Shown here piece after piece: positions 35,542 to 58,359 of a DNA stretch of 64,000 bases. Within the stretch, counting starts at the first letter, position 1, and every line of letters starts with the position of its first letter. The position numbers and the translations under genes were made by a program. Origin of the DNA: a bacterium (lineage in GTDB: Bacteria; CSSED10-310; JAFGSJ01); NCBI GenBank assembly GCA_016934675.1, contig JAFGSJ010000088.1, forward strand, positions 24,724 to 88,723, written 5' to 3'. Below the pieces are notes generated by a model. That model saw only the letters and a list, made by a program, of their open reading frames with translations, was not told the origin of the DNA and did no database searches.

Positions 35542-38169
35542 TCAGGTCCTGTATTTGGGAGAGTTGAGATACTTTTCCTGGACCAGAAGCAGGGCATCGT
35601 GCCTGGAATGGAGCAGACCGTCAAGTTGAAGATCGAGGATATGAGCGATGATTTCCTGGTAGATCGGACCACGCGGAATGCCCAGTTTTATCAGGTCTTT
35701 TCCAGAAATGAAGCAGGTTTGCCAGCGCAAATAAGTGATGTAGTGCGAAATGTGACGCTTGATTTTTTCGGTTTCAGATTTGGCCATGAAAAACAGGACT
35801 GCTTCAAGGGCATAGGGTTTGAGCAGCCGGTAAAGTGCGCTCGGTAAGCTTTCAGGTTGGTCCTCGAGCGTTCCCAACACGATTCTTTCCGCATTCTTCG
35901 CTTGATCGATCAGAACACGAAGCCGTTTGGGAATTTCCAGACTATGGCTGAGTTCCTGAATTTCTAAAACCGAACAATCGTGGACAAGACCGATAAAATA
36001 GACCATCCAGCCTTCGAGCGGAGAATCGCTGTAGAGTAGATTGTACCAGAGCAGGACCTCCTGGATCCTTTTGAAGAGCGGCTTGATCCGATCGAGAATG
36101 ATCCCGGGCAAAACAAAACGCAGCACATCGAATTCTTTCATCCGCAGCAATGGCTTCAAAGGTTCTACTTCCAGCAACATCAGTTTGAGTTCGTGCATCA
36201 TCCTTTTGCCTGACAGGTCTTTGATCAAATGATGCGAGACCGCCGTTTCAATGAAATGCAGGGTCTGTTTTCCGATCGTGCAATCGAAACGACTTTCAAA
36301 ACGAATAGCCCGGAAAATCCTGGAGGGGTCTTCGATGAAACTCAAACCATGTAAGACCCGGATGGTTTTTTCTTTGATGTCTCGCTGACTCCCAAAGAAA
36401 TCGAGCAGATCGCCGAAAGAATGACGATTGAGACACATGGCCAGAGTATTGATCGTAAAATCCCGACGATAAAGGTCCTGCTTGAGTGAACTGATCTGGA
36501 TTTTCGGCAAAGCGGCTGGTTTGGGATAAAACTCTGTCCGGGCTGTGGCAACATCGAATTTGTAACCGTCAGGACAGATAATAACCGCCGTTTCAAACTT
36601 CTTGTGAACTTTAACGCGTGCTCCCAGAGCTGCAGCGAGCTGTCTGGTGAATTCAACGACTTCCCCCTCAATGACAATATCGATATCAGAATTCTCTACG
36701 CGGAGAAACAGATCACGGACAAAGCCACCGACCACGTAAACATTGATCGAACATTTATCGCCTATTTCACCGATTTTGATCAGAAGTTGCAGGATTTCCT
36801 CGGAAATCCGCTCTCGCAGAAGTGAACGGATATTCTTGCGGGTCTTCACTTCAGCGACCGAATTGGTCGTGTTCTCAGGCACATTCTCATCATATATTCT
36901 GCGTAAAATATCGGTCCGGGTAATGACCCCGACCACCTTCTTTTCTTCAACAACAGGTAAAAACCGGGTGTTATTGGCAATCATCAGCTGTTGCGCAATA
37001 ATGGCCAGAGCAGTATGCTCAACCGGGTAGATTTCGGTCGACATGTAATCACGAACCAGGTGGTCCGAAAGCTTATGATAAATTGCTTTATCCACAATCT
37101 GACGTGAAATGAGTCCAACCAGATAATCGTTGTCTTCGACAGGTAAGGTATTGATAGAATACTGATTCATCAGCACCGCCGCATGGGCCAGGCTATCATC
37201 GGCGAACACCGTCCAAACTGGCGAACTCATAATATCCCGGGCAGTCAACTGGTGAGGAATGTTTTCACTCAACAATCGTAGGAGTTGCTGTCGGGCTTCA
37301 ATGAGTGTCAGGTCCCTGATCGAGGCTGAAGCCGCTGAAGGATGTCCGCCTCCGCCAAAGGCCTTGGCGTAGTAACTGACATCGACATGACTGACCCGGG
37401 AGCGGGCAATAAAACTCATCCTGTCGCCTAAACGCACGATCAGAAACAAGACCGATATAGTAAACATGGCATCAAGTTTATGGGCCAGAACGGCCAGATC
37501 GCTGAAATAGTCCTCGATCGAAGCTGTGGCAATGGTGATTGCCTGACCGTTGATGACAATGTTTTCCAGACCATCGATCAACTTATTCAATATCCTGATA
37601 TGTTCGGGCGTCATATCTTTTTGAGTAAACTGGGCGATACAAGCCAGATCGGCACCCTGTTCGATCAGGAATGAAGCTGCTTGCAGGTCACGAGGCCGGG
37701 TCGAGCTGAAGATGAAATTGCCCGTGTCTTCATAGATGGCCAGGGCCATTGCCGTTGCCTCGTCCGGTGTTATGGCTATTGCGCGTTCACGCAATAGCTC
37801 AGTAAAGAGTGTGGTCGTAGCACCGATTTCCTCGATATGCTCAAGCTTACCCGACACATCATCACTGGAAGGTGGGTGATGATCATAAATATGCAATTCC
37901 ATTCGTCCCGCTTTAATGAAACTGGAGACTTCACCAAGACGGGTCAGACTTCGCGTATCGACAATGATCAATTGTTTGACTTGTGACCAGTCCACCGCTT
38001 TGATCTTCAAAAAGGGCAGTTCAAGTGGACTATGAGCCAGAAAGTCACGGACATTCTTCTCCTGAGAACCACTGAAAAGGAGCCGGGCTTTCGGATACAA
38101 TTTCAAAGCCGCAATCATGGAACCGAGGCTGTCAAAATCAGCATTGATATGAGTCGTAATAATTTGCAT
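35542..38169 (-). CDS. DHH phosphoesterase - CBS - CBS - CCA/polyA polymerase fusion (tRNA nucleotidyltransferase-like)
   Basis: ITTHINADFDSLGSM and YDHHPPSSDD (DHH/DHHA1), tandem CBS, VYVVGGFVRDLFLRVENSDIDIVIEG, RRDFTINTLAMCL. Confidence 0.94.
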   Translation of the reverse strand: MQIITTHINADFDSLGSMIAALKLYPKARLLFSGSQEKNVRDFLAHSPLELPFLKIKAVDWSQVKQLIIVDTRSLTRLGEVSSFIKAGRMELHIYDHHPPSSDDVSGKLEHIEEIGATTTLFTELLRERAIAITPDEATAMALAIYEDTGNFIFSSTRPRDLQAASFLIEQGADLACIAQFTQKDMTPEHIRILNKLIDGLENIVINGQAITIATASIEDYFSDLAVLAHKLDAMFTISVLFLIVRLGDRMSFIARSRVSHVDVSYYAKAFGGGGHPSAASASIRDLTLIEARQQLLRLLSENIPHQLTARDIMSSPVWTVFADDSLAHAAVLMNQYSINTLPVEDNDYLVGLISRQIVDKAIYHKLSDHLVRDYMSTEIYPVEHTALAIIAQQLMIANNTRFLPVVEEKKVVGVITRTDILRRIYDENVPENTTNSVAEVKTRKNIRSLLRERISEEILQLLIKIGEIGDKCSINVYVVGGFVRDLFLRVENSDIDIVIEGEVVEFTRQLAAALGARVKVHKKFETAVIICPDGYKFDVATARTEFYPKPAALPKIQISSLKQDLYRRDFTINTLAMCLNRHSFGDLLDFFGSQRDIKEKTIRVLHGLSFIEDPSRIFRAIRFESRFDCTIGKQTLHFIETAVSHHLIKDLSGKRMMHELKLMLLEVEPLKPLLRMKEFDVLRFVLPGIILDRIKPLFKRIQEVLLWYNLLYSDSPLEGWMVYFIGLVHDCSVLEIQELSHSLEIPKRLRVLIDQAKNAERIVLGTLEDQPESLPSALYRLLKPYALEAVLFFMAKSETEKIKRHISHYITYLRWQTCFISGKDLIKLGIPRGPIYQEIIAHILDLQLDGLLHSRHDALLLVQEKYLNSPKYRT

Positions 38170-38211: not shown

Positions 38212-39111
38212 CTACTGAAATGGATGATATTTGGCATAAATCTCTTGTAGTCTTTCTTGAGCAATATGGGTATAGAGCTCAGTCGTCGTAATATCGGCAT
38301 GGCCAAGCAGCATTTGGACCGACCTCAGGTCTGCACCTCTTTCAAGCAGATGGGTCGCAAACGAATGACGTAAAATATGTGGTGATATCTTTTTGTTGAG
38401 ACCAAGGTCCCGGGCATATTTCTTGATGATTTTCCAGAAAGCTTGTCGGGTCATGGCCCGGCCCTGATGACTCAAATAGAGATCGTCGGAGAGACGACGA
38501 TTGGTCAAAAAACCGCGTGCCTCCTGAAGGTAACGATCCAACCAATCAAGAGCGTGAGCACCCAGAGGCACAATTCGCTCTTTGGCCCCTTTACCGAAGC
38601 AACGGACAAAGCCAACTTCGAGATTGACCTCGGACAGCTTGAGCGAAACAAGTTCGCTTACCCGCAAGCCTGTCGCGTACAATGTCTCGAGCATACTCTT
38701 GTCCCGGAGACCAAGTCGTGTCCCCACATCAGGCGCCGAGAGCAGACGATCGACTTCAGCAATATCGAGTACATCCGGCAGTTTCCGGGCAAGTCGAGGT
38801 GCTTCTATGGTTTCAGCAGGATCATCTGCAATAAGCCGCTCGAACTGACCGAAACGGAAAAAACTTTTGATGACAGAAATCCGTCGGGCTATGCTTCGTG
38901 CTGAAATACCCTGTTTACGCTCGGATAACAGAAACTCGAGCAAGTCTGTCTTCTTGACCTGTTCACATTCCCGGACTCCCCGCGATTCAAGAAAGACAAT
39001 CAGTTTCTTCAGATCGGAATGATATGCAGAACTGGATTGAGCCGACAGGCCCTTCTCGACACGAAGATAATCCAGATACAACTCGATGAAATGAATCAAT
39101 GAAACCATCAT
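38212..39111 (-). CDS. xerD: Site-specific tyrosine recombinase XerD/XerC
   Basis: [66 protein letters not shown]. Confidence 0.93.
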
Positions 39112-47929: not shown

Positions 47930-48838
47930 TTATTTCGCCTTTAGATATCCCAACAGCCGGGCCCTGTTTTTGTCCCGTTGATAGTCCTCTTCACTGACCC
48001 GGGTGAGCCCGTCAACTTTAAACATCATCAGCAATTGCTGACCTTCGCTGGTCCGAACATACTTGAGTATTTCCTCGATTAAGGTGTCCTTGAGTTCCCG
48101 ATCAAGATTGGCTCGATAGAAGAAAGGCGCGAACATCAAACCGTCCAGCGATGCCAGAACATGAAGATTGCGGACCAGACCAGGCGAATTAATCGCCAGT
48201 ATATCCAAGGTGGCATGAGAGATGGAACATGATTTGATACTACCGGTCAAAAGATCACGAATCGCAGTAATATCAGAGTAATAGGGCTTTACTTCCGAAA
48301 AAAATTTCTCCAGATCACTGCCCAACCCTTTTTCAAATAACAGAGTCTGAGGAAAGAGCCCGCCGGTTACCTTATGAAAAGAAGTATAACCGAAGGGAGT
48401 CCCTCTCAAAGATTCGATCGTCATTTCCTTGTTGTTACTGTGTACTACCAGACAAGCCGTATAAGAACTCGCACCATTCTTGACTATGGTCACCATCGGT
48501 TTGATCGGATACTGCTGCTCGATGCTAAAATAGTCAATGATACCCGTATAACCCAGGTCCACTTCACCCTTTTTCAAGGCCGTTACTGTTTGCTCGATAT
48601 CAGGCAGTATGACTAAATCGATCTTGTGCTTGACCCGGTCACTCATCCATTTCATTAATGGTTTGAACGATGATAACACCGTCTCAGGGCTGCCAATCTC
48701 AGGATTGACGACGACAAACCTGAGCGTTGATCCATCATCGACTGCATTCTCCGATTGAGCAGGCCCTGGGGGATTTCCCCAAGCCATGTTACCAAGGAGA
48801 AAAAAAGAAATGAGCACTACTTTTACGGTCTTACTCAT
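47930..48838 (-). CDS. PhnD-like phosphate/phosphonate substrate-binding protein
   Basis: Signal peptide, VDLGYTGIIDYFSIEQQYPIKPMVTIVKNG, FGYTSFHKVTGGLFPQTLLFEKGL. Confidence 0.85.
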   Translation of the reverse strand: MSKTVKVVLISFFLLGNMAWGNPPGPAQSENAVDDGSTLRFVVVNPEIGSPETVLSSFKPLMKWMSDRVKHKIDLVILPDIEQTVTALKKGEVDLGYTGIIDYFSIEQQYPIKPMVTIVKNGASSYTACLVVHSNNKEMTIESLRGTPFGYTSFHKVTGGLFPQTLLFEKGLGSDLEKFFSEVKPYYSDITAIRDLLTGSIKSCSISHATLDILAINSPGLVRNLHVLASLDGLMFAPFFYRANLDRELKDTLIEEILKYVRTSEGQQLLMMFKVDGLTRVSEEDYQRDKNRARLLGYLKAK

Positions 48839-50423
48839 GCTGTCTGCTCCCGCTATTGTACCTCGATCGGGCTAGATAAATATCAACGTTACTGTTAAAA
48901 TAACCCAATTCCGGATACTGTTTGATCCTGACATAATTGCTTTCGAGTATTGTCAGGAAAGTATCACGCATTTGTGGTTCGTTTGGATTGTAAAACTCGG
49001 GAAAACGACCGATAAAGGAATTCTCAGCTATGGCAACCAGGGCAATTTCCTGATTCTGTAATCGTGACTCGAGCTGCTTCTGCGTTACTATCCGGAACCT
49101 GCGACATCGTTCCTCATCCCAGTTCGGATCATTGGTGGCCACATGCATCTCATATCCGGGCACGATTCGACGGTCCGCAAGCACAACCAAAGCGTTATTG
49201 TACGATAATATCTCATCACCAGGACGGGTTTGTGATTGAATATATGACGCAGCTTCCTGTAAATAAGAAGTCGGACTCTTTCCGGCAGTCAGGCTCAGGG
49301 AAGTCCGACCATATGCCGCCAGATTTAAAAGACACAGCATCATGAAGATCACAAATGCCCAGGTCCGAATGACTTGTCCGAACAGAGCCCGATAAAGATT
49401 GTTGATTTCTATTGCTATCAGACTCGCTGCCAGAGGGAAAAAGGGCGTCAAATATTCATCCACAACACCACTTTTGGACACTGCCTGAAAACTACTCACT
49501 CCAGCCAGTATCAACAAGAGTAACCAACGTTCCCCATCAATCCTGCGGATCAAAGCAACGCCTGTCGTAACATCTCGGACATGGTGCTGAACGATCAGAT
49601 AAACAGTACCAACGATTAAGGTGATTAACATGGCCAGAAAAAGAAAAAATTCATGGGCCATCTTGCAAATGACATCAAATCTGAGCATGATCGTCATCCA
49701 GAGCGGATGAACATCTTTATGGAAATTGTAGAGAAATACCGAATACACGAACTGCTCGAAATAATGCACTAAAAAGGGACCCAGAATACTACTCGTCACC
49801 ACTGTCACACCGAAGAAAACTGCCCAAAAAAGACGCGACACAACCCCATGACGGATTACCACCCAGATGAGTAGGATCGCCAAAGCCGGAAATACTGATA
49901 TCCGAACACATGTCGCGAGACTCAGAAAAATCGATCCCAGTAAATAATTCGTCCAACGCTGACCCCCGACAACGATCGTCCATACTCCCAGTGTGAATAA
50001 AAAGGCTGTCAAAGGATAGAGCTTGTTCATGGAAAAAAAATAACTCAAAAAACCGTTGTAACAAAGCAAACCTGTGGCTAGCGCAGCCGCAACCCAACCA
50101 GATTTCCGACGACTGATATCCATACCAAGGAGAACCGCGCCCAATCCAAAAAGAAACGAGATAATCCTCATCACTACAAAATCAGGCCTCAATATCACCT
50201 GATACATCAGAGAATAGATATAACTGTGGAGAGGCGCCTGGGTATATATGAAATCCCGATACGGTATCTGCCCCTGATACACCAGATACGGCGTGACAAA
50301 ATAAAAACCCTCATCAACATGGATCCGCCCATAAAGGACATTAACCAAGGAAAAAAGAATATAAAAGCCCACTGAGCATATAATCCATATCCGATAGCCT
50401 GACCCGTCTCGTGCCATGTTCAT
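48831..50423 (-). CDS. Membrane glycosyltransferase (GT39/GT-C-like)
   Basis: HVDEGFYFVTPYLVYQGQIPYRDFIYTQAPLHSYIYSLMYQV, multi-TM; RBS GGGAG before Met at 50423. Confidence 0.82.
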   Translation of the reverse strand: MNMARDGSGYRIWIICSVGFYILFSLVNVLYGRIHVDEGFYFVTPYLVYQGQIPYRDFIYTQAPLHSYIYSLMYQVILRPDFVVMRIISFLFGLGAVLLGMDISRRKSGWVAAALATGLLCYNGFLSYFFSMNKLYPLTAFLFTLGVWTIVVGGQRWTNYLLGSIFLSLATCVRISVFPALAILLIWVVIRHGVVSRLFWAVFFGVTVVTSSILGPFLVHYFEQFVYSVFLYNFHKDVHPLWMTIMLRFDVICKMAHEFFLFLAMLITLIVGTVYLIVQHHVRDVTTGVALIRRIDGERWLLLLILAGVSSFQAVSKSGVVDEYLTPFFPLAASLIAIEINNLYRALFGQVIRTWAFVIFMMLCLLNLAAYGRTSLSLTAGKSPTSYLQEAASYIQSQTRPGDEILSYNNALVVLADRRIVPGYEMHVATNDPNWDEERCRRFRIVTQKQLESRLQNQEIALVAIAENSFIGRFPEFYNPNEPQMRDTFLTILESNYVRIKQYPELGYFNSNVDIYLARSRYNSGSRQHE

Positions 50424-50464
50424 GTCTCGACTCCCTGGCCCCATGTCCTAATTTTTACTACAAT

Positions 50465-50840: not shown

Positions 50841-51812
50841 ATGAAACAGAGAACTCACAATAAGAAAACAATTGCCCAGTCGGTCAGTTATACAGGAATC
50901 GGTTTGCACTCTGGTCAGCACGTGACCATGACCTTAAAACCAATCACGACGAATGCGGGGATCATTTTTCAGAGGACTGATATGCCCGCTGGAGTTTCAT
51001 CATCAATTCTAAGCACATTTGGCAATGTTGTCGAAGTCGATCATTCGACGAATCTTGGGGACCACTCTCGGGAGTGTGTCATTCGGACGGTAGAGCATTT
51101 GTTGGCGGTTTTACACGTCTATGAGATTGACAATGTATTGGTTCAGTTGGATGGCCCCGAGGTGCCGATAACTGATGGTAGTTCCAAGCCACTGGTCGAT
51201 TTGATCGAGCGGGCCGGGATTCGTGAGTTGCCTTATCATCAGGAGCGGATGATCATTCGCAAGGCGATCGAATATAGTGAAGGTGATAAATATATTCGTA
51301 TTTCCCCCTTTAACAGGTTGAAGGTGACCTATCATATTGATTTTCCTAATAATTTGATTGGTCAACAGACCTATTCGGTTGTTTTGAACAAGTCTAATTT
51401 TATCAAAAAGATTGCACCGGCCCGGACCTTTTGTCTGTTAAAGGAAGTTGAATATTTAAAACAGAATGGTTTAGCCCAGGGCGGCAGTTTGGAGAATGCA
51501 GTCGTCGTGGCTGAAAACAGGGTTCTCAACGGTGGTTTACGGTTCGATGATGAGTTTGTTCGTCACAAAGTCCTGGATGTGATCGGCGATCTCTATCTGC
51601 TTGGCAAACCTGTTTCGGGTCATGTCGAGGTGAACAAGGGTGGCCACCATTTACATACAAAATTACTTCAGGCCATTCTTACTCAGCCAGACTGCTATAC
51701 GATCGATCAGGACCCAGTATCAGTTACAATTCAAAGCTTACCCGATCGTAATCGGCTCAGGTCATATAAAGACAGAGTGGACTTGTATCCGGTCTCTAAT
51801 ATGGCTCTATGA
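50841..51812 (+). CDS. lpxC: UDP-3-O-acyl-N-acetylglucosamine deacetylase
   Basis: GIGLHSGQHVTMTLKP, TVEHLLAVLHVYEIDNV, PEVPITDGSSKPLVDLI, HKVLDVIGDLYLLGKPVSGHVEVNKGGHHLHTKLL. Confidence 0.97.
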   Translation: MKQRTHNKKTIAQSVSYTGIGLHSGQHVTMTLKPITTNAGIIFQRTDMPAGVSSSILSTFGNVVEVDHSTNLGDHSRECVIRTVEHLLAVLHVYEIDNVLVQLDGPEVPITDGSSKPLVDLIERAGIRELPYHQERMIIRKAIEYSEGDKYIRISPFNRLKVTYHIDFPNNLIGQQTYSVVLNKSNFIKKIAPARTFCLLKEVEYLKQNGLAQGGSLENAVVVAENRVLNGGLRFDDEFVRHKVLDVIGDLYLLGKPVSGHVEVNKGGHHLHTKLLQAILTQPDCYTIDQDPVSVTIQSLPDRNRLRSYKDRVDLYPVSNMAL

Positions 51813-54798
51813 GGTCCTGATTAGACTCTGACGGGTTGAACGGCACAATTTTCCTGACAGTAGCTTTTGGGGTGGAGTGTTTTTTCTTTTGTTTCTTCGG
51901 TAACGAGGTCCTCGTGGTGGATTGTGCCGTGGGACTCAACTCGGGCAGGAAAGAGAATGCTTCACCCCAGGCCAAGACAGAGGCAGGGACATCACTCTCA
52001 GAGAGAATCTGGAAAGCGTTTTCGTAGCCGATGCGACCGCCTTTGACCGGGTGTCCCAATTCATTGATATGCCCCGCGATGATGTGTTGAAATCTGATAT
52101 GTCTGGTCAGTTTTTTGAAAGCCTGCACATCATTGAAATCGGGCGAAATGCTGCCCAATTTTACAAAACCAAGGTGACAGGGAGCTAGATCGAGTTGAGT
52201 ACTGGCATAATCGTGATCACCGAGATGAAGCAGGCGATATTTTTGAGCAGTTTCGATCTCGTACACGCGGTGAGGAATTTTTCGTCCCTGATCATAGACA
52301 TGCTGACCCTGGTGGGCCATTACTTTCAGTGTTTCATCCTGTTTGGTCGGGAAAGTAAAGGAACGGTGCTCATCTGGTTTCAATCCGATTGCGCCGCGCG
52401 GTAGCAGCGTGATGAACTCATGGGGGATGATGACCCGTTTGCCTCGGCTGATCAATGTATTGATCAACTCGAGATCAAAATGATCGGGGTGACGATGTGT
52501 GACAAAGAGAATATCGATGAGATCGGCGAGTGTTGAGACAATGGTCGGTTCAAGGTTCCAGAAGACATTGTAGACATGACGGGTCGTGACCAGATCGAAA
52601 GCCAGCGTGAGTCCTGAAGTTTTGACAATATAACCCTGATTGTAGAATTGCCATACCTTGAGATGATCGGTTTCGATCATTTGTTCCTGTTCGATTTCCT
52701 CGAATGCGATGGTCATGCACCGGGCAAAGAACTGCCTGACGCGATAACTGCGATTACTGAGAGGTAACTGCAGAATCTGGTCAATTTCCTGAAAAGCATT
52801 TCGTCGAATTTCAATCTGTTCGGGTGTCGTCAAGCGTATTGTTTTCAGGAATCTTTCAAAGATTTCCTCGGCATTTCCCGGAGAATGAATATAAAAAATC
52901 GAATTATGGCCGTTATAACCATCGTTTTCTTGACGCGAGTTCAGGGGATCATGGAGCCAATGTCTGCCATCGACTATGAATTTATAACGATAACGTCCGG
53001 GTAGTAAGAACTCGTGAGTGATATGCCAGGTCCCGGATTGGTCGGGGACCATTGGCGTCACTCCTTCCTGCCACTGATTGAAATCACCGACGAGATCGAC
53101 GCTGGTTGCTTGTGGGTTTGTATAGTGAAACGTCACCTTATTTTTATATATTCGTGGGTGGCTTGAAGGGACATCCTCTTGAGGAATATTGTTCATCAAG
53201 GCGGCCTCGACCGCCTCGAAAGGTGAGATAACGCCATATCCCTGAACGAACGGCGATATACCGTCCAGATGACGAGCGGTCGCTATAAGGATCTTTTTGA
53301 TATTTTCAGGCGACAATTCGGGATTGACTTGAAGCATCTGGGCAATGACTGATGCCGTGATCGGGGCTGCAAATGAGGTCCCATCAACATGCTGGTAATG
53401 CGTCGCAATCAATTTTTCCGATTTGGTCCTCTGTTCAGCCCATTGTCTGATTTGTTCGACCTTAAGCTGCTTTTTCGCGACCGGCAACTCTCTGAGACTG
53501 GCCCGGTTTTCTTTAAAGAGAGGGATGAGTTCATGATCGAGTGCTTTCATCAGTTTTTGAATTGCCAATGATTCATAATACAGGGCAGAACCAGGCAATA
53601 TCGGTGCGGCGATCCAGATAGCCGGAGCGATGATCTCCGGTTTGACAACGCCCTCAATTGTTGAACCATAGGAAGAATGATACATACGCAAGGTATCCTG
53701 AAAAAGCGTGTTCTGATCATCTGTTCCTCCAACCGTAATAGCTGAAAGAGCATTGGCCGGTGGGACGGGGGGCTTATGCGGATCATTTCCGGCGGCCACC
53801 ACGACCACAATCCCCGCAGCAACTGCCTCCGCAACCGCTTTATTGACAGGGTTATCCATACTGTCACTGGGTAAACCGGTCCCAAGCGAAATATTGATTA
53901 TGCGGATATTGTATTGAGTTTTGTGCTCGATGGCCCATTCAAGTCCGGCACTGATCAAATCCCGTTTGGAGTTTTGTCCGCTTGAAGCCTTGATCAAAAC
54001 CACATTCGCTTCGGAGGCAATGCCGCGATAAAGACCTTGTGAGAGAAAGCCATTGCCGCAGGCTGATACCGAGGTTTGCATGCCATGCCAGCTTGTCTGG
54101 ACAGGCTCCGCTAGTTCACTCCAACCTGAATTCAGGTCCGACATATCCACATAGGCCAGGATCCTGTTCACAGGCTTGACCAGATCGGGATGAGGATAAA
54201 AGCCCGAATCGATAAAAGCGATGGTAATGCCTTGACCCGTATAACGCGGATTGGCATTCAGACGTAAGGGCGTCGGAATCACCGCAAAATCATCTGCTGA
54301 CAGGGAAAAATAAGGAGCAAGTGTGCCATGAGCCGGGCGCTCTGAAAATCGCTCGACTAACTGCAGCACATCGTGTTCATGAAACGATCCTCCCGACCGA
54401 CTCCGGAAGAGAAAACCGTCGCTTTCACGATCTGTGGTTAGCGCAATCAGACATGCTTCCAGAACAGATGAAAGTTCATTCTCGACCGAAACAACATACC
54501 ACTCGTCTTTGAGGGGAGACCTGATCCTCCACAAACCGTTTTCATCCCGGTCAATATCGGCTCGCCGTAAACTGACCAATTCCTTCGGGCTCAATTCAGT
54601 GCCATGATATAACATGAGAACAGTCAGGTCCTGCAACCAGCACGGACCGTACATCTCACTGCCGCGACGCAGCCGAAGCAAATTGGTCGAGGTACCTCGA
54701 CGCAATTTCTGTTCAAGCTCACGGTGCTCACGAAACTTCATCAGGACTTCGAAAAGAAGTTGTTCTGATTCGACAGACCGGTTTTTATGATTGTTCAT
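51796..54798 (-). CDS. Multidomain fusion: degenerate tyrosine-recombinase-like domain - subtilisin (S8) - E-set/CBM48-like - metallo-beta-lactamase fold
   Basis: FIDSGFYPHPDL (Asp197), WHGMQTSV (His238), AAGND (Asn338), DGTSFAAP (Ser475); VDLVGDFNQWQEGVTPM...GRYRYKFIVDGRHWLHDP; FVTHRHPDHFD and LHLGDHDYAS; N-terminal LMLYHGTELSPKELVSLRRADIDRDENG. Confidence 0.92.
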   Translation of the reverse strand: MNNHKNRSVESEQLLFEVLMKFREHRELEQKLRRGTSTNLLRLRRGSEMYGPCWLQDLTVLMLYHGTELSPKELVSLRRADIDRDENGLWRIRSPLKDEWYVVSVENELSSVLEACLIALTTDRESDGFLFRSRSGGSFHEHDVLQLVERFSERPAHGTLAPYFSLSADDFAVIPTPLRLNANPRYTGQGITIAFIDSGFYPHPDLVKPVNRILAYVDMSDLNSGWSELAEPVQTSWHGMQTSVSACGNGFLSQGLYRGIASEANVVLIKASSGQNSKRDLISAGLEWAIEHKTQYNIRIINISLGTGLPSDSMDNPVNKAVAEAVAAGIVVVVAAGNDPHKPPVPPANALSAITVGGTDDQNTLFQDTLRMYHSSYGSTIEGVVKPEIIAPAIWIAAPILPGSALYYESLAIQKLMKALDHELIPLFKENRASLRELPVAKKQLKVEQIRQWAEQRTKSEKLIATHYQHVDGTSFAAPITASVIAQMLQVNPELSPENIKKILIATARHLDGISPFVQGYGVISPFEAVEAALMNNIPQEDVPSSHPRIYKNKVTFHYTNPQATSVDLVGDFNQWQEGVTPMVPDQSGTWHITHEFLLPGRYRYKFIVDGRHWLHDPLNSRQENDGYNGHNSIFYIHSPGNAEEIFERFLKTIRLTTPEQIEIRRNAFQEIDQILQLPLSNRSYRVRQFFARCMTIAFEEIEQEQMIETDHLKVWQFYNQGYIVKTSGLTLAFDLVTTRHVYNVFWNLEPTIVSTLADLIDILFVTHRHPDHFDLELINTLISRGKRVIIPHEFITLLPRGAIGLKPDEHRSFTFPTKQDETLKVMAHQGQHVYDQGRKIPHRVYEIETAQKYRLLHLGDHDYASTQLDLAPCHLGFVKLGSISPDFNDVQAFKKLTRHIRFQHIIAGHINELGHPVKGGRIGYENAFQILSESDVPASVLAWGEAFSFLPELSPTAQSTTRTSLPKKQKKKHSTPKATVRKIVPFNPSESNQDLIEPY

Positions 54799-54805
54799 TC
54801 GTTAC

Positions 54806-57337
54806 TCAGGTCCTTGCCCGAAGGATCAAATAGAGGCCAATGACGATAAATAAGAGGTTCGGTCCCCAGGCAGCTAAAAACGGTGGCAACTGGTTCCCAT
54901 GACCCAGTGAGATTCCCATCCGATACGCCACAAAATAGACCATACCGATAAATATACTGAAACCAATACCAACCAAGGTCCCACTCCGTTGAAAAGTGAT
55001 GGCGAACGGTATGCCGAACAAAGCAATCACAAAACTGATGAAGGGCATGGAGAGTTTCGCTAAGAGATCAGTCTGATACAGGGTCGTATCGATTCCTTTG
55101 TCTCGGAGAGAGGCAACATATGACTGCAACTCACGATAGTTCATCTTGTCGGAATCCTTGATCTCACGCCTGAAATCGGAAATCTTTTCGGTCAAATCGG
55201 CCTTGAGACTACTGAAAATCGTTCTATCTGAAGGAGTACCGTCTCTCTTGTAATGGGTCACTTCCCCATTATGATAATACCAGGACCGTTCGGCATCATT
55301 CCAGTGTACCTGCTGGGCTTCAACTTTCTGAATGGGCTGAAAATGCTCATCCAGTGTGTACAGCAGAAAACCGTTCAGGACATTACGACCTTCCCGCTGA
55401 TCAAATGAGGCAAATGAATAAATGCTGTTATTAGAACCACGATACCAATTCTTGTTATGGGTAAACAGGCTTGGTTTCGAACGCTTTTTTATCTTGTAAT
55501 CGGAGATCTCTTCAGCCATGGCATTGGTTTTGGGAACAACGCGCTCATTAAAAAACAGGACCCCGAGCGAAATCAGAAAGGATAGAATAAATATGGGCAT
55601 GGCTGCTCGATAGAGAGACACACCACAGGCTTTCATGGCCGTCAACTCGTTATTCCGCGAAAAAATGTTTATGGTCAGAATAGTCGTGATCAGCACGGCC
55701 ATATGTACACTCAATACGAGAAAAAAAGGAATGCGTAACAGTATATAGGTGATAAAATCGACAAAGGCTGCGTCATATCTGATATAATCACGTATTTCCG
55801 TGATAAATTCGAGGATTATGGTAATCACGATAATGATTCCGCAGAGCAGCAGGAATTTCTTCAGAAACTCACGACCGATATAAAAATCCAGTAAACGAGG
55901 AAAAGAATGATTGAAAAAGAAGGTCTTCCGGGACCGCTCGACTGCTTGTTCCTTGGGACGATGTCTCGATTTATACCAATGGATGGCCTGTTGGCTGAAC
56001 TCCGCTGTCTTCCATTGCAAGTACTGCAGGAATAGAAAAGGTTTCTCACGGGCGACTTTATAAAAAACATAGAAACCGATCAGGGTCAGAAAAATGTTTG
56101 CGGCCCAGATTCCGATCCAGGCAGGTGTTTCACCCTCCCGGGCCATACCCTCTCCGGTCATAATTATAATGTAATACACAAGGATGAGGACCAGGCTCAA
56201 AGAAAAACCCGTTGATTTACCACGACTCTTATAGCGAATCCCCAACGGAATGCCGATAATACTGAATACAAAGCAGGCTATCGGATAGGCAAACTTGGTA
56301 TGCAGCACAATCTCGAATTTGCGAATCTGACGTTGTAACGATGCAATCGCATTATTCTCTTCATCAATTTTTAGCTTCATTTTCTTAATGAGGGGACGAT
56401 CATGTTTGGCTTTTTTGGCTGGCCTCTCGGGAGTTTGTTCTACGACACTCTGCTTGAATGACGGTTTCATCCTGGTGATTTTTGACTCTTCCTTGAATCT
56501 AACCATTTCTCGACGGTAAATCTCTCGTTTATATGCCTCCATCTCTTGTAAAAGTTCCGAAACATACATCTCTTGATCGCTTTTCTGGACCTTATTCTGC
56601 TCCTTTTCGTTATTTTCATTCTGCACCAAAGGTATGATAATGTCCTTTCGCTTGAAATGCGTGAATGAAAAACTGGCCGTATCATCGGTGAGTTCATGAA
56701 TAATGCCATCCTGTAGCGATAAAAGTATCTTTTTCTCCTCGGCAAAACTCCGGACCAATCCTCTTTCAGCGAAAATATAATCAGTATTTGCCGGTGATTG
56801 CTGACGATAGATGAAAATCTTCTCCATATCGTTGGTCCTTGAGTCCAAATCCTCGGAATACAGGACCAGATTGCTGAATTTATCATAAAACACATGAGGT
56901 TTTAATCCGATATTCAGGTTGCTTTCCAGGATTTTATAGGTGATGTTTTGGCGATATTCAGCCGTCTTGGGAATTCCAATCAAGGTAATATACTGACACG
57001 CTGCCCATGTCATACCCGCAACCAGAAAAACAGGAACACTCATACGTAACAGACTGATGCCATTTGCCCGCAATGCAGTGATCTCGCTGTCACCTGAGAG
57101 ACGACCAAAAGCTATGAGTATGCCTGTCAAAACGGACATCGGGATGGTAATCTGCAAAATCGGCGGCAGGGAAGTCGCCAAAAGCTGCAGAATTAAAAAG
57201 ATACTCACTTGATTGGTTATGAATATTTCTACAGATCGGATTATAACCTCGGTCAGTAGAATGAGGATAAAGACAAACAAGGCCAAAAAGAAAGGAGTAA
57301 CCAGTTCACGTGTGAGGTATCGATCGATAATTTTCAT
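54806..57337 (-). CDS. Single-chain LptF-LptG fusion, LPS export ABC transporter permease
   Basis: Two YjgP/YjgQ units: IDRYLTRELVTPFFLAL...GDSEITALRANGISLLRM and LDFYIGREFLKKFLLL...NNELTAMKACGVSLYRA. Confidence 0.92.
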   Translation of the reverse strand: MKIIDRYLTRELVTPFFLALFVFILILLTEVIIRSVEIFITNQVSIFLILQLLATSLPPILQITIPMSVLTGILIAFGRLSGDSEITALRANGISLLRMSVPVFLVAGMTWAACQYITLIGIPKTAEYRQNITYKILESNLNIGLKPHVFYDKFSNLVLYSEDLDSRTNDMEKIFIYRQQSPANTDYIFAERGLVRSFAEEKKILLSLQDGIIHELTDDTASFSFTHFKRKDIIIPLVQNENNEKEQNKVQKSDQEMYVSELLQEMEAYKREIYRREMVRFKEESKITRMKPSFKQSVVEQTPERPAKKAKHDRPLIKKMKLKIDEENNAIASLQRQIRKFEIVLHTKFAYPIACFVFSIIGIPLGIRYKSRGKSTGFSLSLVLILVYYIIIMTGEGMAREGETPAWIGIWAANIFLTLIGFYVFYKVAREKPFLFLQYLQWKTAEFSQQAIHWYKSRHRPKEQAVERSRKTFFFNHSFPRLLDFYIGREFLKKFLLLCGIIIVITIILEFITEIRDYIRYDAAFVDFITYILLRIPFFLVLSVHMAVLITTILTINIFSRNNELTAMKACGVSLYRAAMPIFILSFLISLGVLFFNERVVPKTNAMAEEISDYKIKKRSKPSLFTHNKNWYRGSNNSIYSFASFDQREGRNVLNGFLLYTLDEHFQPIQKVEAQQVHWNDAERSWYYHNGEVTHYKRDGTPSDRTIFSSLKADLTEKISDFRREIKDSDKMNYRELQSYVASLRDKGIDTTLYQTDLLAKLSMPFISFVIALFGIPFAITFQRSGTLVGIGFSIFIGMVYFVAYRMGISLGHGNQLPPFLAAWGPNLLFIVIGLYLILRART

Positions 57338-57421: not shown

Positions 57422-57856
57422 TCAAATCACGGGATTCGTTTGACCCGCTGCATTGTCTTGAACTGGCCCCTTGACTGTAGATTCCGGTTTGGCAGCAGAC
57501 CGAATGTTCTGGAGTTCATTCTCGGTTTTCACAAGTCTCTTTTTAAGACGTCGAAGTTGAGTCCGTGTTCTGATCGAATCCTGAAGCATAATCAAATATG
57601 CCATCAGAAAACCTATGGTAAAACATAAAAATAAGACGACCCATAAGGGGAGTTTACGCGGGACTTGAACGGGAGCGGTGATACTCTGAGTTTCACCTTC
57701 GACGGCAATCGCGGTGTTTGCAGGCTGAATCGTCTCATAACCCAGTAATGGTTTCCCCATCCAATAATTGATCGAGACCTTCTCATTATTTGAAGTGCCA
57801 AAGATAATAACGACAAATAAAAACAACATGGCTATCAAAAATTTAATTGCTTTCAT
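57422..57856 (-). CDS. lapA: LapA domain-containing membrane protein
   Basis: IKFLIAMLFLFVVIIFGTSNNEKVSINYWMG and second TM followed by basic coiled coil; internal Met at 57856 preferred. Confidence 0.8.
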   Translation of the reverse strand: MKAIKFLIAMLFLFVVIIFGTSNNEKVSINYWMGKPLLGYETIQPANTAIAVEGETQSITAPVQVPRKLPLWVVLFLCFTIGFLMAYLIMLQDSIRTRTQLRRLKKRLVKTENELQNIRSAAKPESTVKGPVQDNAAGQTNPVI

Positions 57857-58359
57857 CTCCCTGCTCTCCTTCTCTCCACTTCCATTTGTAGCTCTATCTC
57901 GCCAATCGTAACAGAACCTCTTCTCTTCATTCTCAGTCCCGATATAATCCAGCACTATTTCTTAATACATGAGTCAAAAACAATCGGAAGCGGCACATTT
58001 TGATTAAGGATAGCATAAATATTCCTAACTATCAAGCATTGCGTCAGAACACATACATTCTCAGTCGGTCACTGTTGTACTGCATGCCTGACATGATTTC
58101 ATTGAAGGATTCATGATCAGGGTCCGTTTCACAGAAGTCACTATCAGCATATTTCGTTTTGTATACAACGGTGAGAATGTCCCTGCATTGGGAACTTGTG
58201 ATGTCATCGGTTGTTATGATAGAAAGAATGAAACACTATTATTTACTTGATTGAAATATAGAAAAGCAATATGTCGCTATAGAAAATGACGATATATTTG
58301 TTCGGAGTTGCCACATCGGACTCATGACCTTGGCGAATCTCAGGAGAGAGCGTGCTTAG

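Follow-up and report, generated by a model that had tools for sequence, protein, structure and literature searches.

A single polypeptide chain of 1000 amino acid residues, P0001, joins the N-terminal half of a tyrosine recombinase catalytic domain, a subtilase, a CBM48 domain and a metallo-beta-lactamase (MBL) fold domain, in that order. Its gene lies at 51796..54798 on the minus strand of the window, the whole 64,000-nucleotide stretch of DNA that was analysed. The gene is complete from ATG to stop; the frame from 54798 to 51796 is uninterrupted, and many stops interrupt the plus strand. The initial annotation, which had proposed the same coordinates and the same order of four parts, proved right on both, and the strand can now be added. 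One copy of the gene is present in the genome, and no Rfam elements were found around it. Each domain is already known; as far as we found, what is new is their joining in one chain. The PMC literature that was searched contained no published description of this architecture, in agreement with the initial impression that none had been described.

The oddity of the architecture, together with a genome bin rated 5.7% contaminated, could point to an assembly misjoin, a frameshift or a decaying gene, a concern that was raised along with the initial annotation. However, the frame is intact, GC3 is alike over all domains, and the recurrence of this four-part order in G332 and G200, both from a different phylum, excludes a misjoin. 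We consider an artefactual or decaying gene scarcely credible.

Domain composition of the fusion protein

Residues 52-151 (54346..54645, minus strand) correspond to the first half of a tyrosine recombinase catalytic domain. When searched alone, residues 1-177 match Phage_integrase (PF00589) weakly (E=0.013). The same stretch, searched as part of whole P0001, matches models of XerA (E 0.0011) and XerC (E 0.05) and, over part of its length, phrog_1 (E 0.036). Two four-part relatives, P0002 and P0003, exceed the Pfam cut-off for Phage_integrase (40.8 and 27.4 bits versus 27.1). The profile of all three N-termini matches XerA (4A8E) at E=1.9e-9, and recombinases (XerA, Cre, XerD) fill the top of its list. 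A profile built without P0001 recovers the N-terminus of P0001 at 2.2e-15, and none of the shuffled controls matched. Similarly, the predicted structure is recombinase-like at these residues, and all 50 Foldseek matches listed for the N-terminal model are tyrosine recombinases, with a model of moderate confidence (pLDDT 70-87 across most of the core, 59 overall). Thus, the suspected resemblance of residues 50-150 to the start of this catalytic domain is real, as judged by the relatives' profiles and by fold.

Of the 172 profile positions, the segment covers ~22-118 and ends short of both HxxR and Tyr, which had been correctly reported as absent. The claim that Arg-I is replaced by Glu turned out to be wrong: the Arg-I column (“TGLRxSEL”) holds Ser70 in P0001 and Asp in P0002 and P0003, and Glu68 sits opposite the Gly of “TGLR”. 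Judged from these residues, the half-recombinase is catalytically dead yet conserved, and it should be unable to recombine DNA. The label “degenerate”, originally given to this domain, is appropriate to the loss of catalysis; the domain is better read as dead but conserved. Among the 17 genomes searched with the half-recombinase profile, no free-standing half was seen, because the remaining matches are all to open frames as long as whole recombinases (296-400 aa). An intact Xer-type tyrosine recombinase is encoded 13 kb from the fusion gene (38212-39111, minus strand; Phage_integrase 4.5e-48). The origin of the N-terminus as a recent copy of this gene was considered and rejected, the BLASTP match being weak (E 0.033). 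Elsewhere in the window, an 875-aa protein fusing DHH, CBS and poly(A)-polymerase-head domains is encoded at 35542-38169 (minus strand).

The subtilase domain (residues 181-540; 53179..54258, minus strand) matches Pfam Peptidase_S8 (PF00082) over the entire profile (residues 188-522, profile positions 1-288 of 288, 4.9e-41, above cut-off). The triad of Asp197 (FIDSG), His238 (WHGMQ) and Ser475 (GTSFAAP) and the oxyanion Asn338 (AAGND) were all found where the initial annotation had placed them, and they are invariant in 12 of 12 aligned subfamily members. Alignment and structure prediction reveal an insert, predicted to be helical, before the catalytic Ser (residues 403-463; 53410..53592, minus strand), which is common to the whole S8 subfamily and absent from its nearest outgroups. 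Extra residues had indeed been noticed here; they number about 60 and not about 70. An N-terminal propeptide of the I9 type is common, although not universal, in S8 subtilases. In P0001 it gave no Pfam match at E<=1, and the N-terminus is recombinase-like instead. As first noted, no signal peptide is visible there by eye, and P0001 is probably cytosolic. The 50 matches listed in a Foldseek search with the full P0001 model are to S8 only; this search is therefore uninformative on the MBL domain and the N-terminus.

The subtilase is followed by a CBM48/AMPK-type glycogen-binding domain (residues 548-638; 52885..53157, minus strand). A glycogen-binding or E-set-type segment had been proposed at about residues 553-640, and matches above cut-off to both CBM_48 (PF02922; residues 553-617, 4.2e-11, 43.5 bits versus 22.4) and AMPK1_CBM (PF16561; 5.4e-9, 36.6 bits versus 26.8) confirm it, in keeping with an all-beta predicted structure at this position. 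Four residues, W576, K606, W614 and N632, correspond to the contacts W100, K126, W133 and N150 of AMPK beta1 in columns matched by eye on the motif. The AMPK residues have been shown to bind carbohydrate (PMC4032982). Of the protease-linked CBM48 domains aligned, a single one departs from the W, K, W, N set, and the K and second W are lost in two proteins composed of CBM48 and MBL.

The MBL-fold domain (residues 711-952; 51943..52668, minus strand) carries the putative metal ligands H768, H770, D772, H773, H833, D861 and H910; the HxHxDH motif described in the initial annotation is present as HRHPDH at 768-773. Matches to Lactamase_B_2 and Lactamase_B_3, from residue ~747, are sub-threshold in P0001 (0.0015 and 0.0056); in P0003, Lactamase_B_3 is over its cut-off (32.5 bits versus 24). 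Among solved structures, UPF0173-type hydrolases and UlaG come closest, with profile matches at E 2.5e-5 to 5e-3. The ligand set (HxHxDH, H, D, H) is complete in P0001 and in four CBM48+MBL proteins, and two of the ligands are lost in P0002 and P0003, from G332 and G200. At L055 and L056, both encoding four-part relatives, HxHxDH is changed to QxLxDH and the later ligands are kept; these MBL domains are possibly pseudo-metallohydrolases.

Relatives and distribution

G332 and G200, both from a single family in a different phylum, encode end-to-end four-part proteins (full-length phmmer E ~1e-188 to 1e-194). Other relatives are shorter. A protein from G568, of a third phylum, comprises the half-recombinase, S8 and CBM48 without MBL; the G058 family and G109 encode S8+CBM48 proteins; S8 alone is found in G250, of the same phylum as G568, and in seven further genomes of that phylum; CBM48+MBL proteins occur in G073, G213, G035 and G316. 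These shorter relatives suggest a stepwise assembly of the four-part protein. The ladder also delimits an S8 subfamily that spans at least four phyla; its members have the pre-Ser insert and lack a visible signal peptide. Unlike the other relatives, a protein from G159 (L070:1340-2452), an MBL domain alone without CBM48, has a signal-peptide-like start (MMKKGVLFAALIVISAFANDSYAQG).

Genomes with such relatives are scattered (9 of 237 in the G250 phylum, 1 of 71 in the G568 class). All seven other searched genomes from the phylum of P0001 lack the fusion and gave generic S8 or CBM48 matches only. A scan of genome contigs returned short matches only, mostly to the CBM48 part, a plasmid search returned matches to the S8 domain alone, none spanning more than a third of P0001, and no relatives were found in IMG/VR. 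The MBL tree groups the three four-part proteins, with weak support (53/63); for CBM48 and S8, the AU test does not reject a single clade of them (p 0.345 and 0.424, respectively). None of the S8, CBM48 and MBL trees resolves the three as one clade, so the trees are compatible with both a single and a repeated fusion.

Between P0002 and P0003, non-synonymous change is well below synonymous change in all domains, with synonymous sites near saturation (pN 0.35 versus pS 0.73 in the half-recombinase; pN 0.15 versus pS 0.64 in S8); the half-recombinase is among the fastest-changing parts in this pair. Across relatives, the protease is constant, CBM48 is its commonest addition, MBL is dispensable, and the half-recombinase is dead but kept. 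Since some relatives lack CBM48, MBL or the N-terminus, none of these is essential to the protease. The triad never varies while MBL ligands are lost in the other phylum, which suggests that proteolysis is probably the constant function of the family.

Possible functions of P0001 and its gene neighbourhood

The reading that we favour, tentatively and with slightly less than even confidence, is that P0001 works in the cytosol as a glycogen-docked protease, regulated through the recombinase remnant at its N-terminus. The constant protease, the common CBM48 with its retained glucan contacts and the kept dead half-recombinase speak for it. So do GlgB-like and GlgX-like genes elsewhere in this genome, which make the presence of glycogen likely. 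Through CBM48 the protein would dock on glycogen or a different alpha-glucan, and its subtilase would there cut particular glycogen-associated or client proteins. The pre-Ser helical insert and the half-recombinase may replace the control exerted by the I9 propeptide in other subtilases, with the half-recombinase serving as a folded interaction or gating module. The MBL domain of P0001 may be a second, metal-dependent hydrolase, and in the G332 and G200 relatives it may have become a non-canonical or regulatory domain. It is doubtful whether the composite account holds, namely that of a two-enzyme protein, assembled stepwise and shared between phyla, where a half-recombinase replaces the propeptide in a glycogen-docked subtilase and metallohydrolase. 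If glycogen docking is true, bacteria have a protease that acts at the glycogen surface, and if the N-terminal role is true, one half of a recombinase fold has been turned into a module that serves a purpose other than recombination. The natural shorter versions make the contribution of each part directly testable by comparison.

The gene neighbourhood speaks against glycogen docking, because the neighbours of P0001 are LPS genes and not glycogen genes; the genes surrounding the relatives also vary between all the lineages that were compared. A gene for an 843-aa LptF-LptG fusion (54806..57337, minus strand) lies 7 bp upstream; each half of this single chain is a full-length PF03739 match (4.9e-79 and 1.5e-79), and the two genes are probably co-transcribed. 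A LapA-domain protein is encoded further upstream (57422..57955, minus strand), and the convergent gene for LpxC (50841..51812, plus strand) overlaps the 3' end of the P0001 gene by 17 bp at its own 3' end. Beyond these, a 537-aa ORF with no Pfam match (48831-50444, minus strand) adjoins a gene for a phosphonate-binding-type periplasmic protein (47930-48838). In E. coli, LpxC is controlled by regulated proteolysis. This precedent and the tight spacing of the LapA, LptF-LptG and LpxC genes would suit a stress or quality-control protease acting on, for example, LapA, LptFG or LpxC, with the E-set domain as a protein-protein or structural adaptor. However, the neighbourhood was not found in G332, G200, the G058 family, G568 or G109, and the retention of all four AMPK-type glucan residues speaks against it too; we regard this explanation as unlikely.

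Some S8 proteases belong to anti-phage systems (IetAS, further candidate subtilases), and a role of P0001 in defence or conflict would agree with its patchy distribution and with matches of the PADLOC “subtilase” and IetS models to its S8 domain. These matches are confined to the generic S8 fold, however, and no defence-type partner genes were noticed beside P0001 or its relatives at the loci examined, which makes such a role improbable. A DNA-directed protease, tethered to DNA or a nucleoid protein by a half-recombinase that has kept its DNA binding, is distinctly improbable: the fold of the segment is that of a recombinase catalytic domain, but one half of the C-shaped clamp is gone, Ser or Asp stands in place of Arg-I, HxxR and Tyr are missing, no complete core-binding domain is seen at the N-terminus, and the segment changes fast.

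Comparison with known systems

The glycogen-docked protease that we favour can be compared with known systems domain by domain. The closest solved structure is Tk-SP from Thermococcus kodakarensis (3AFG), the top match by both sequence and structure. P0001 shares the complete triad, the oxyanion Asn and the full-length Pfam match with Tk-SP and the S8 family, and differs from them in having no I9 match or visible signal peptide, in the ~60-aa helical pre-Ser insert and in the fusion of the protease to three other domains. Both its sequence profile and its fold link it to XerA, XerC and XerD (PF00589; 4A8E, 5HXY, 5DCF) over the first half of their catalytic domain, whereas HxxR and Tyr are lacking and Arg-I is Ser70 (Asp in relatives). 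As in CBM48/AMPK beta domains (PF02922, PF16561), the glucan-contact W, K, W and N are kept; CBM48 is usually part of a glycan-active enzyme or a kinase subunit, whereas in P0001 it is joined to a protease and a metallohydrolase-type domain. Finally, HxHxDH and the later His, Asp and His are shared with UPF0173/TM1162 and UlaG-like hydrolases (3KL7, 3X2Z, 2WYL). In contrast to these hydrolases, the MBL domain of P0001 follows CBM48 and a helical linker, its profile similarity to the solved members is weak, and the ligand set is partly lost in the G332 and G200 relatives.
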